Source: Syncephalastrum monosporum B8922 (lineage: Eukaryota; Mucoromycota; Mucoromycetes; Mucorales; Syncephalastraceae). Taken from it: a DNA stretch of 41,589 bases. Positions 27,249-32,369 of the stretch are shown here, piece by piece. A program made the position numbers and the translations under genes. Numbering within the stretch: position 1 is the first letter of the stretch; every line of letters begins with the position of its first letter. The notes below the pieces were generated by a model that saw only the letters and a program-made list of their open reading frames with translations, did not search any database and was not told the DNA's origin. The stretch covers positions 1 to 41,589 of the forward strand of contig JNEN01000880.1 in NCBI GenBank assembly GCA_000697355.1. Reading direction: 5' to 3'.

Positions 27249-29135
27249 ATGCCCACCTTCCTCGTCCAATTCGCTCAGGCATGTCTCGATTCGATGCCGT
27301 CTTGATTCAGTTGCTGACGATCCACTTATCTGACAGTTCCACGAGGATTTCAGACTCCCAGAGCTTCAATCGTTGGCCCAGTTTGAAAAACTGAATCTTG
27401 GCTACAATGAGAGCGATTACAGCCTAGACGTATGTTTTACTTTGGCACTGTCTGTGCTATGCCTGCTAACTGTCCATGAAGTGTCCTTATTTCAAAGTGA
27501 AGCTTGACTCGGCTGAGGACGCCCAGCGACTTATCCGGCGCGCTATCCTGATCAAGTAATCCTTTGATCCGTATTCGTACCTTTTGATAGAGGTTACTAA
27601 CCTGTGTACCACGCCCAGGAACATAGTCGAGTTGTGGGGAGAAGGTAGAACTTATGAGGAAGTGCATCAGCAAGTTAAGGCGCATCCTGAACGCTGGGTA
27701 TGGCAATAATGTTTTGAGGTATGGCTATAAGTACTCATTACACTTATTATTTTTTCTTGTGTATATTTGTGTGCGTGTGGGTGTGCAGGACCTCTACAAG
27801 GACGTGTCTTTCAAGTTTGTTGTATCTGCCTACAACTCAACCGTCTCCAACAAAGAGCAGCTGCGAATTATCAACTCATTCTCTTATCTGGGCTTTGATG
27901 GTCCCATTGACATGAAGAACCCTGACGTGCAGTTCAATGTCATGGAAGACTATGGCTCGGCTGCACCCCGGAAAGACGTTACACCCGAACGACAATGGAT
28001 CTATTTTGGTCGTTTGGTCGCCTCAGGCAGTCGTGATCTAGTACAGAAATACAATCTCAAGAAACGCAAGTACCTGGGCACGACGTCGATGGATGCCGAG
28101 CTGTCGCTGGTCATGGCGAACCAGGCTTTGGCTGCACCTGGCAAACTGATCTACGACCCCTTTGTCGGCACCGGTAGTTTCCTCTTTACGTGTGCCCATT
28201 TTGGCGCTTATACCTTGGGATCCGATATCGACGGACGCCAAATTCGTGGTAAGCCGGGTGCGACCAGCGTTCAATCCAACGTGGAGCAGTACAACTTGCA
28301 GGGCCGTGTATTGGATTCACTCGTATTCGATGTCTGCCACCACCCATGGAGGGTGGATAACTGGCTCGACGCCATTGTCACAGGTAGGTTATATTGGATG
28401 TTCTATGAGCTTTTTGATTGACCTGTTGCTGTATCAACTAGATCGTAAGTTGGGATAAGAAAAAAGATACCCTGAAAGGATGCATTGACACGAGTATAGC
28501 ACCGTATGGTGTGCGTGCCGGCGCCAAGACGCTCGGACGTAAGGATGGCAAACCTCTCGCGATGCGTACTTATGATGGTGTACCAATGCACACGTAAGTT
28601 TTACATTTCTGTATGTGATACCAACTGATATTGGAAACATGCAGACGCGAAGATTATTACCCTCCCACCAAACCGTATGAAATGTCTGAAGTTCTTGACG
28701 ACCTGCTGGATTTCAGCTCCAAACAGCTGCGCGTGGGAGGACGACTGGTCTATTGGTTACCCACGGTCGTGGATGAGTGCGTCTTTATATCCAATGCGAT
28801 AGATTGTCAATTGATTGTTATTCTTATTTCTAGGTACGCACTCACGGACGTGCCTCAGCACCCCTGTATGAAGCTGGTATCCAACAGCGAGCAAAATTTC
28901 GGTCAGTGGGCGCGACGACTGATCACAATGGAAAAAGTGTGCCAGCCTGGCGAGGCTAAGCCCTCGAGTAAGGAAGACTCGGAGTCCAAACCTGGCCACT
29001 ACCTTTTTCGTGAAAAGGTATACAGAAACGATGACTTGTGCATGGAGATGGCAGTAAGTTCTGATCTGACGCTTTTTATTAAACGATCTACAGTATTTCA
29101 ACTTTGGCCGACAAGATCCAGCAAACGGAAACTAA
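27249..29135 (+). CDS. TRM11: tRNA (guanine10-N2)-methyltransferase catalytic subunit TRM11
   Basis: With Trm112, Trm11 methylates G10 of tRNAs. Ten exons keep frame: 27249-27278, 27337-27429, 27482-27555, 27619-27697, 27789-28383, 28442-28444, 28500-28593, 28645-28776, 28834-29053, 29094-29135. They give 453 residues (human 463, yeast ~433). The N-terminus MPTFLVQFAQ|FHEDFRLPEL fits the family and requires a first intron starting GC (GCATGT). A THUMP-like region follows (ELWGEGR, KFVVSAYN). The SAM-binding fold has YDPFVGTGSF and LGSDIDGR, and the catalytic motif is DPPYGVRAGAK (Asp ~291). The Asp codon of DPPY needs the 3-nt exon 28442-28444; a single long intron would give Ala instead. The C-terminus has GGRLVYWLP, HPCMKLVSNSEQNF and RRLITMEK. 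The ATG at 27281 is in the first intron and is not the start. Confidence 0.93.
28442..28444 (+). other. TRM11: 3-nt micro-exon (ATC) completing the TRM11 catalytic Asp codon
   Basis: The trinucleotide sits between an intron ending CAACTAG (28384-28441, 58 nt, donor GTAGGT) and one beginning GTAAGT (28445-28499, 55 nt, acceptor AGTATAG). Both flanking introns have normal local length and signals. Spliced, the codons read ACA G|AT C|CA CCG TAT, that is Thr-Asp-Pro-Pro-Tyr. Skipping it keeps frame but gives Thr-Ala-Pro-Pro-Tyr. Asp or Asn at this position is required in the (D/N)PPY motif of N2-guanine methyltransferases. Confidence 0.75.
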
Positions 29136-29535: not shown

Positions 29536-32369
29536 ATGAAGCTACCTACCGTGGTCAGTTTGACTGCTACAGCCTCCTTGCTGCTCAACGCCGGCACCTT
29601 TGTTGCCGCGAACCCAATGTTCAACAGCAACACTGCCGCCCATCTCAACGATGCGTCCACACAAGACTCGTGCCAGGGTACACTTCAAGCCATACTCGTT
29701 GTCATCCTTCATTGTGACTCATTCTCCTCGTACTCTCATTTCTAGGCCTCCGCATCACGTTCCCTGCGTCTGCCAGTAAGTACCTTTCGTTCCCCTACCT
29801 TTTATGTGTGCGACACTCGAGAAATAACACTATCTACTTTAAAGGTCTTTCATTCGAAGACGGTACGAAGCACGTCGTCTCATGGCAAGGGCTTGGATCG
29901 TTCAGTCAGGTCAACGTTACTCTTGTGCCTGAATCCGATCCTACTTCTTCCGGTTCTTATATTGGCACCTTCGGTAAAAATTAAAAAAAAAAAAATAGGC
30001 ACTAAAATTTTGTTGATCCTAATGAAAATTCCTATCGCACAGATGCGTCCAAAGGCGCTTCAGGCGAAGTGCCCTTCGAGCTCAAAGGCAACCAACCAGG
30101 TACTTACTGCAGTCTTTTTTGTTTTGCTGAATCCTCTTTGGTTCTCATACGGGTGCTGTAGGATCTTACCACGTTCACCTGACCACGATTGGCGGCAACA
30201 GCAACTGCGAGGTGAATTCGTCCCCTTTCACCATGGAGAAGCGCGCCGAAAATAACGCAGCACAATCGACGTCGACTTTAACCGAGCACGATGACGGCCA
30301 CGTGAATGCAGCTGCACTCGATGCGATTGTTCACGAGATCTCGAAGCCCTCGCAGCACACTGACGACCAAGATTTGGATGCAGTCGTGCAAGATATTGCC
30401 CACGGATCCCATAGCAACGCGGAAGATCTGGACGCTCTTATCCAGAATATTGCTCATGACTCTTCCCGGGCGCAGCAGAGCCATATGAACGACCAAGAGC
30501 TGGACGCACTTGTGAACAGTATCAAGTCAAAGACACACAGCGACAGCGAATGGGACAGCATGCTCGACCGTGTTGGCGGATACGTCCAGTCGGACAAACA
30601 ACATTCAAACGGACAGGCTGATCTGGAGAAGCTGATGGACGAGATCAGACACTCGGACGACCGCAGCCACCAGAACGCTGCGGCCACTTCCGCTTCTTCT
30701 TCTACTTCTTTCGCTTCTGATGCATCTGAGGAGCCCAAGAATTTCGATGCTTATATCAAGGTAAATTCAACCCCTTGTTGTCATTCATCTCTTTCCTCAC
30801 ACTGTGCAGAGTCTCGACCAAGAGTACCGCAAGTATATTGATAAGAACAAGGAGTCCGCGACAGAAACCGTTACCCACAAGAACGAGTCGCACATGGATA
30901 ACCCGTACTTCACCAACGACGATCAGCGTTCACACAAGAATCAGGTGCATAGCGACGCCGCATGGTTTACCAATGACGACCAGCGCCATTCGAACGTGCA
31001 CAGCGACTCCGCGTGGTTCACCAATGAGGACCACCGCCATTCGAACGAGCACCTTGACAGCCCATACTTCACCAATGCTGATCAACGCACCCACGTCAAT
31101 ACCCACCTGAATGACGAGCTGACCCAGCTTGCTCAGACCATTCAACGCACGGATGCCCACACCAACGGTTGGACTGAGTCTCACCAGGACCAGGCTGTGA
31201 ATGGCTGGACTGAACACGCCAACGTTGCTCCTAACAGCTGGAAAGAAGCCATCCATGCAAACCAGGCCGTCGGTGGCTGGACCGAGGGTCATAGCAACGA
31301 AGTAGTGAACGGCTGGGAGAAATCTGAGTCGACGCACCCCAACCAGGCCGTGAGTGACTGGACAGAGCCGCACAGCAACACAGCCATCAACGGATGGACT
31401 GATGGTCACACCAACGAAGCCGTGAATGGATGGGAGAAATCTGAGTCGACGCATCCTAACCAGGCCATGACTGGTTGGACTGAGGGCCACAGCAACCAGG
31501 CCGTGAGTGACTGGACTGAGGGCCACAGCAACCAGGCCGTGAGTGACTGGACTGAAGGCCACAGCAACCAGGCCGTGAGTGACTGGACTGAAGGCCACAG
31601 CAACCAGGCCGTGAGTGACTGGACTGAAGGCCACAGCAACCAGGCCGTGAGTGACTGGACTGAAGGCCACAGCAACCAGGCCGTGAGTGACTGGACTGAA
31701 GGCCACAGCAACCAGGCCGTGAGTGACTGGACTGAAGGCCACAGCAACCAGGCCGTGAGTGACTGGACTGAAGGCCACAGCAACCAGGCCGTGAGTGACT
31801 GGACTGAAGGCCACAGCAACCAGGCCGTGAGTGACTGGACTGAAGGCCACAGCAACCAGGCCGTGAGTGACTGGACTGAAGGCCACAGCAACCAGGCCGT
31901 GAGTGACTGGACTGAAGGCCACAGCAACCAGGCCGTGAGTGACTGGAGCGAAACACACAACGATCAAGCCATCAACAGTTGGACAGATGGCCACACCAAC
32001 GAAGCCGTAAATGGATGGGAGAAATCCGAGTCCACGCATCCCAACCAGGCCGTGACTGGCTGGAGCGAACCGCACAGCAACCAAGGCATCAACAGTTGGA
32101 CTGAGGGCCACAGCAACCAGGCCGTGAGTGACTGGAGCGAAACACACAACGATCAAGCCATCAACGGTTGGACGGATGGCCACACCAACGAAGCCGTGAA
32201 TGGTTGGGAGAAGTCTGAGTCGACACATCCTAACCAGGCTGTCACTGGTTGGACTGAGGGCCACAGCAATCAGGCCGTGAGCGACTGGAGCGAAACACAC
32301 AACGACCAGGCCGTGAATAGCTGGGAAGGTGAAGCCCATGTTGACCGCGCTCAGAGCGGCTGGTATTAA
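29536..32369 (+). CDS. Secreted KRE9/KNH1-like protein with long Trp-module repeat tail
   Basis: Six exons (29536-29677, 29746-29775, 29845-29973, 30043-30099, 30162-30760, 30810-32369) keep frame and give 838 residues. Residues 1-25 form a signal peptide. Residues ~45-145 (LRITFPASA, HVVSWQG, VNVTLVPES, PGSYHVTL) match the KRE9/KNH1-type N-terminal domain of fungal cell-surface proteins. A Lys146-Arg147-Ala-Glu site then looks like Kex2 processing. Next come ~6 modules around LDA(V/I/L)V (about 155-270), about four YFTNDDQR-type modules (~340-410), and from ~437 to the end about 30 modules of the form (S/N/T)(D/G)W(T/S)EGHSNQAV. There is no C-terminal hydrophobic tail, so no GPI anchor; it ends SGWY. 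Secreted or wall location is inferred. I do not recognise the repeat part or know its function. One exon is only 30 nt. Confidence 0.85.
31476..31943 (+). repeat. Tandem array of 13 x 36-bp units, in frame
   Basis: Each 36-bp unit encodes 12 residues, W-T-E-G-H-S-N-Q-A-V-S-D. From the first TGG at 31476 to the diverged unit starting 31944 is exactly 13 x 36 bp. The units are nearly identical; the visible change is GAG to GAA at the Glu codon after the first two. Diverged units of the same module lie on both sides (about 31170-31475 and 31944-32366). On the right side a longer block recurs (modules containing NGWEKSESTHPNQAV). This points to recent expansion by unequal exchange or slippage. 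Confidence 0.95.

Follow-up and report, generated by a model that had tools for sequence, protein, structure and literature searches.

Ultra-small exons in fungi and plants

Ultra-small exons are already known, and the TRM11 exon described here stands out by lying within a catalytic motif and by its inferred depth. One of the closest systems is the 1-nt micro-exon of the CYP621A P450 genes of Fusarium, which was confirmed by SRA reads (PMC12940212). Both cases concern a fungal, ultra-small exon that completes the codon of a conserved motif between short flanking introns and creates a problem for gene assembly, and a joint intron exceeding twice the median length, which raised the suspicion of the CYP621A exon, is a further likeness to TRM11 (PMC12940212). 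Omission of the 1-nt CYP621A exon breaks the frame, whereas omission of the 3-nt TRM11 exon, in a catalytic motif, is silent in frame; moreover, the former is reported from Fusarium and its teleomorphs, whereas the latter appears to extend over several phyla, judging from genes and protein models. Micro-exons of 1 nt were likewise described for the plant genes APC11 and VPS55, with RNA-seq and RT-PCR support (PMC8831610), and these are deeply conserved and absent from reference annotations, as the TRM11 exon seems to be. The VPS55 donor is GTRAGT, as in the TRM11 case, and intron loss removed the APC11 exon from some lineages, but both exons differ from that of TRM11 in being 1 nt long and in coming from plants.

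Regulation and compact intron pairs have fungal precedents as well. Xlr2 of Trichoderma virens contains a regulated, glucose-dependent micro-exon for which two isoforms are described (PMC11121469); here too, the formation of a working domain depends on the inclusion of a fungal micro-exon, while the TRM11 micro-exon, in contrast to this glucose-dependent one, is read as essentially constitutive. Stwintrons, known in fungi, resemble the TRM11 arrangement in that two short introns are closely joined (PMC9024468 and PMC6616335), yet in a stwintron the outer intron has a splice element interrupted by the inner one, which is not so in the TRM11 pair (PMC6616335). Among the titles listed in literature searches, which in two cases covered 40 of 735 and 12 of 441 matches, none concerned a TRM11 micro-exon or a 3-nt exon in Mucorales. 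A 3-nt exon within a catalytic motif would offer a natural test of the smallest exon that intron-definition splicing can handle, and the intron pair would offer one of how long introns 3 nt apart persist.

A TRM11 gene in Syncephalastrum monosporum

The window is a stretch of 41,589 nt from Syncephalastrum monosporum B8922, and its locus at 27249-29135 on the plus strand encodes a fungal TRM11, the predicted catalytic subunit of the tRNA m2G10 methyltransferase, as judged from sequence and structural comparison. With the 3-nt exon ATC included, the joined exons give a protein of 441 aa that aligns over its full length, at equal length and 96% identity, with the Syncephalastrum racemosum protein P0001, which is annotated with DPPY. 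Several close homologues among the best 120 of 3527 protein matches carry the name tRNA (guanine(10)-N(2))-methyltransferase, and the PF01170 profile matches the 441-aa protein with 39.9 bits. A search of the assembly itself (27.5 Mb in 198 contigs, with match counts to be taken as lower bounds) gave at least 6 protein matches, all inside this single gene, and TRM11 is apparently otherwise intact and single-copy.

All exons lie on the plus strand. Exon 1 (27249-27278) encodes MPTFLVQFAQ, identical to the N-terminus of P0001, and the removal of intron 1 (27279-27336, CAG/GCATGT) reproduces that N-terminus exactly. Translation and alignment with P0001 place exon 2 at 27337-27429, exon 3 at 27482-27555, exon 4 at 27619-27697 and exon 5 at 27789-28383, the last of these also found in the assembly search and ending in DAIVT plus G, the first base of an Asp codon. 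The micro-exon ATC (28442-28444) is placed by sequence, splice enumeration and cross-species comparison. The exon after it (28500-28593) starts with CA CCG TAT and supplies the rest of PPYGVRAG..., and further exons at 28645-28776 and 28834-29017 precede the last exon, which holds the stop (29094-29135); these four again rest on translation and on the P0001 alignment. Intron 1 is of the rarer GC-AG class.

An AlphaFold2 model of P0001 has a mean pLDDT of 82.8, and its best PDB match is 6zxw, the Archaeoglobus Trm11-Trm112 complex with sinefungin (E 8.7e-21, 16% identity). Around the motif, residues 296-311 have pLDDT below 50 and the block 291-300 stands at 55, so the model is uninformative on the motif itself; in the alignment, the motif Asp obtained with ATC included falls on the Asp within the ATDYPYL of both 6zxw and 6zxv. 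The (D/N)PPY motif is required for activity in the TRM11 family, as its conservation also indicates, and in this protein it is present solely when ATC is included. Since the available parts of PMC8999500, PMC10415138, PMC5372719 and PMC9957541 contain no Asp mutant data for Trm11, the need for the motif rests on family knowledge and conservation. Yeast lacking both trm11 and trm1 is reported to grow poorly (PMC10415138).

The 3-nt exon and its reading frame

The 3-nt micro-exon ATC in TRM11 is very probably real. Intron 5 (28384-28441, 58 nt, GTAGGT...AACTAG) and intron 6 (28445-28499, 55 nt, GTAAGT...GTATAG) are both in phase 1 and divide the motif as G/ATC/CA, so that ATC holds bases 2 and 3 of the Asp codon GAT together with base 1 of the Pro codon CCA, followed by CCG TAT. 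ATC is thus internal, 3 nt long and bounded by GT-AG introns on both sides. Its inclusion gives VTDPPYGV, while skipping it gives VTAPYGV, in frame, without a stop and one residue shorter; retention of intron 5 leads to a stop 12 residues after Thr, and retention of intron 6 to one 5 residues after. The sequence-only reading had described two adjoining introns of 58 and 55 nt with standard ends and only ATC between them, inclusion giving Thr-Asp-Pro-Pro-Tyr and skipping leaving the frame open, all of which agrees with the coordinates and translations found here. It had also given the skip product as Thr-Ala-Pro-Pro-Tyr, which is wrong: because one codon is lost, translation yields Thr-Ala-Pro-Tyr.

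Splice sites were ranked against introns collected de novo in the window and a further 200 kb, a set that grew to 891 'introns' and whose model missed or shifted several TRM11 introns, so the percentiles are rough. Against this noisy reference, the donors of introns 5 and 6 stand at the 97th and 91st percentiles, the acceptors at the 20th (weak) and 44th, and the lengths at the 26th and 21st. A stricter earlier set of 58 introns showed the same intronic donor consensus GTAAGT, which its filter had partly imposed. Both introns contain a TTGAC branch-like element, 20 and 11 nt from the acceptors of introns 5 and 6, respectively. The micro-exon donor is preceded by ATC instead of CAG, which, like the weak acceptor of intron 5, speaks against the micro-exon, with the caveat of the noisy reference.

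We read the locus as an old, essentially constitutive micro-exon, formed by two phase-1 introns 3 nt apart that would be spliced in turn and often be misannotated, with a probability of about 0.88. Two ordinary GT-AG introns within the (D/N)PPY motif would leave ATC as a coding exon, which would thus owe its existence to the 3-nt spacing of two intron positions. An acceptor and a donor 3 nt apart can hardly be bound simultaneously, and this makes sequential, intron-defined splicing likely. The order of removal of introns 5 and 6 would be free, and after removal of intron 5 the ACAG-ATC/GTAAGT join would still present a normal donor. The main mRNA would then keep ATC and encode a DPPY enzyme, while gene finders would usually fail to place a 3-nt exon and would join across it, giving the published TAPY.

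Other splice routes and chance

No single intron restores the motif. There are 144 candidates with GT-AG, GC-AG or AT-AC ends; an open frame results from 30 of them and the motif from none, and with any ends allowed, 0 of 19805 give [DN]PP[YFW]G. When pairs of introns were enumerated (GT or GC to AG, each at least 30 nt), 5 of 1111 combinations gave [DN]PPY; their second intron is 28445-28499 in every case, and among them the ATC solution alone keeps the conserved DAIVT. The earlier claim that ATC is needed for (D/N)PPY is therefore borne out, as no other tested splice choice both makes the motif and keeps DAIVT.

As Asp-Pro requires an exon of the form AYC, chance was estimated for AG/AYC/GT in dinucleotide-preserving shuffles of the interval 28384-28499 with the outer sites kept, a test framed after the site had been seen. 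AG/AYC/GT with both introns at least 40 nt long arose in 540 of 200000 shuffles (0.27%), and with YAG and GTRAGT sites in 2 of 200000. In 200 kb sampled from this genome, with both strands counted, YAG/AYC/GTRAGT occurred once. The cross-species evidence for the micro-exon is stronger than the shuffle figure.

The catalytic motif among homologues

The homologue set (n = 165) pools three protein searches, two of which contributed their best 120 of 3527 and best 120 of 2344 matches; a region-limited search gave 38 proteins, 5 of them new, and a search from Saitoella, aimed at Dikarya, added 40. DPPYG was found in 146 of the 165 listed homologues, 142 by script and 4 by eye (P0117, P0121, P0122 and P0123, left unclassed as too short for the rule). 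Exactly VTAPYGV stands in 14 and VTEAPYGV in one, from Phycomyces, and another 4 listed proteins are otherwise odd at the motif and were also left unclassed by the script, namely P0043 and P0109 (odd models), P0124 (a read-through) and P0125 (ending before the motif). All 40 proteins added from the Saitoella search have DPPY, and none bears the skip mark. VTAPYGV occurs in Dichotomocladium, Apophysomyces, Cunninghamella, Radiomyces, Halteromyces, Lichtheimia, Absidia, Gongronella and Hesseltinella, which we take to be Mucorales, and further in Endogone (Endogonales), Calcarisporiella (a phylum of its own) and Thamnocephalis (Zoopagales), as placed by taxonomy lookup, and in two Syncephalis, presumably also Zoopagales.

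VTAPYGV appears to mark gene models that miss a 3-nt phase-1 exon. A TAPY model with GT-AG sites implies an upstream exon ending in G and a downstream exon starting with CN CCN TAY, and hence an Asp codon that is contiguous on neither side; VTEAPYGV would fit the same omission with a tandem acceptor. On the strength of their protein models, the TAPY species, too, would thus carry the micro-exon in their gene structures. Leaving ATC out of TRM11 lowers the PF01170 score from 39.9 to 26.6 bits; P0001 scores 40.3 bits, and the 4 of the 14 TAPY proteins that were tested score 23.5-26.5. Among the best 120 of 3527 matches, the precomputed PF01170 is absent from 6 proteins, all of them TAPY models (P0010, P0011, P0020, P0033, P0038 and P0083). 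A de novo intron finder blind to micro-exons joined 28383 to 28500, as the TAPY models do. Because sister taxa differ, P0001 has DPPY and this crude finder made the identical join, errors in gene models seem a better account of the public TAPY forms than real transcripts do.

What is new is the use of the recurring VTAPYGV/VTEAPYGV in homologues from several fungal groups as the mark of a missed exon. By this mark, 15 of the 165 listed proteins appear wrong at the catalytic residue; database variants such as TAPY should not be taken for dead enzymes, and screening for the change from [DN]PPY to APY could reveal further misannotated proteins. Two other odd models are probably gene-model errors of another kind: P0043 (Basidiobolus meristosporus) reads VTGSAHPPYG while P0039 (B. 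ranarum) has DPPYG, and P0109 (Rhizophlyctis rosea) reads NIVSDLGKPPYG while P0080 of the same species has DPPYG. One idea for the P0043 model was a U12-type AT-AC origin; introns 5 and 6 of the window start with GTAGGT and GTAAGT. No locus related to the TRM11 micro-exon region was present in the viral contigs scanned.

Read-through frames and the age of the intron pair

Open reading frames that run into intron positions give a separate view of the two introns. P0124 (jgi source) groups with Umbelopsis on the tree and is identical to P0029 (Umbelopsis ramanniana) in 222 of 231 aligned positions, apart from an insert of 24 residues that follows VTD. This insert starts with RKL and ends with LPLP before APYG, which fits a 72-nt intron read as GAYC/GTAAG...CCAG/CACCN, although R and K allow other codons, so that GTAAG and CCA are required by the splice reading and not proven by the protein. 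In the window, too, the frame continued into intron 6 begins with DRKL. P0124 ends in MHE where the next intron would begin and therefore looks unspliced; it fits a gene in which AYC is coding and the second intron exists alone. It was rejected as direct proof of the micro-exon, for what an unspliced-looking frame can show is limited to the second intron and to AYC as coding. P0028, from the Umbelopsis group in which the second intron alone is proposed, is a 469-aa ORF with DPPYG on a 1464-nt contig and thus appears mRNA-like. P0121-P0123, Mucor-like by eye, have DPPYG contiguous and apparently continue into an intron farther on (REKV...), which suggests that they lack both introns of the pair, and P0125, Lichtheimia-like by eye, apparently runs into the donor of the first intron (VTGKS...).

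A quick tree was built from 66 of the 165 listed proteins, with a motif mask that worked only with Thr before and YGV after, so that CDPPY-type rows and P0124 kept their motif. On it, the distribution of the 15 skip rows takes no fewer than 9 changes, 5 of them forced by starred branches; shuffled labels gave a mean of 13.7, and none of 500 shuffles was as low as 9. The skip label is clustered and therefore not pure annotation noise, and the clusters would fit clades that keep both introns beside clades in which one or both were lost. Sister rows differ nonetheless, as in Phycomyces TEAPY versus Spinellus DPPY and Absidia or Halteromyces TAPY versus Chlamydoabsidia DPPY, and the nine rows of the Mucor-Rhizopus clade all have DPPY, as would suit a clade that lost one intron or both. 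Both intron positions are, we infer, present in Mucorales, Endogone, Calcarisporiella and Zoopagales, and both look old; the exon would then be homologous between phyla. One early origin followed by losses is the simplest story, which the tree does not separate from repeated or parallel gain.

Alternative explanations

A regulated switch would let skipping produce an in-frame, presumably dead TAPY enzyme, lowering m2G10 or tying up Trm112. The open, stop-free skipped frame, the 14 TAPY homologues clustered on the tree and a 116-nt joint intron with usable outer sites agree with it, but every 3-nt exon skips in frame, so the frame is uninformative on a switch, and some sister taxa differ in having a TAPY or a DPPY model, as annotation error predicts. 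With an inner donor that ranks near the outer one and the Asp kept in nearly nine-tenths of the listed homologues, we consider such a switch very unlikely, and the active-versus-dead enzyme proposed from the sequence alone is unsupported. It is likewise quite unlikely that the exon has been kept since before the Mucoromycota/Zoopagomycota split as a used one-codon switch, with a dead TRM11 that still binds Trm112 and tunes m2G10 and the Trm112 supply by condition.

That the TAPY fungi truly make TAPY enzymes, having lost the Asp, with ATC in the window a product of chance, takes the deposited models at their word. This account calls for a minimum of 5 to 9 separate changes, each with the identical one-codon loss, against a 96%-identical Syncephalastrum protein with DPPY, an Umbelopsis-like ORF that fits AYC as coding and the rarity of AG/AYC/GT in the shuffles, above all with consensus sites; we regard it as extremely unlikely. 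Excision of the interval as a unit, through a stwintron (a nested intron) or a true recursive site and with the Asp supplied otherwise, is hardly credible: stwintrons do occur in fungi and 116 nt is about two introns long, but neither intron interrupts a splice site of the other, each intron has its own donor, branch-like element and acceptor and could be removed alone with the other left intact, and no single excision restores the Asp. Recursive splicing, raised by the same early reading, does not match in its usual form, as the sequence CTAG/ATC/GTAAGT has its donor 3 nt past the acceptor and no AG/GT ratchet point.

Other features of the locus

The last TRM11 intron (29018-29093) has two possible donors, of which 29018 gives REKYFNFGRQ as in P0001, while 29054 would add 12 residues. 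The next gene downstream starts at 29536 with an N-terminus that looks like a signal peptide by eye, and it contains a 30-nt exon (29746-29775) between GT-AG introns that codes for part of GLRITFPASAS.
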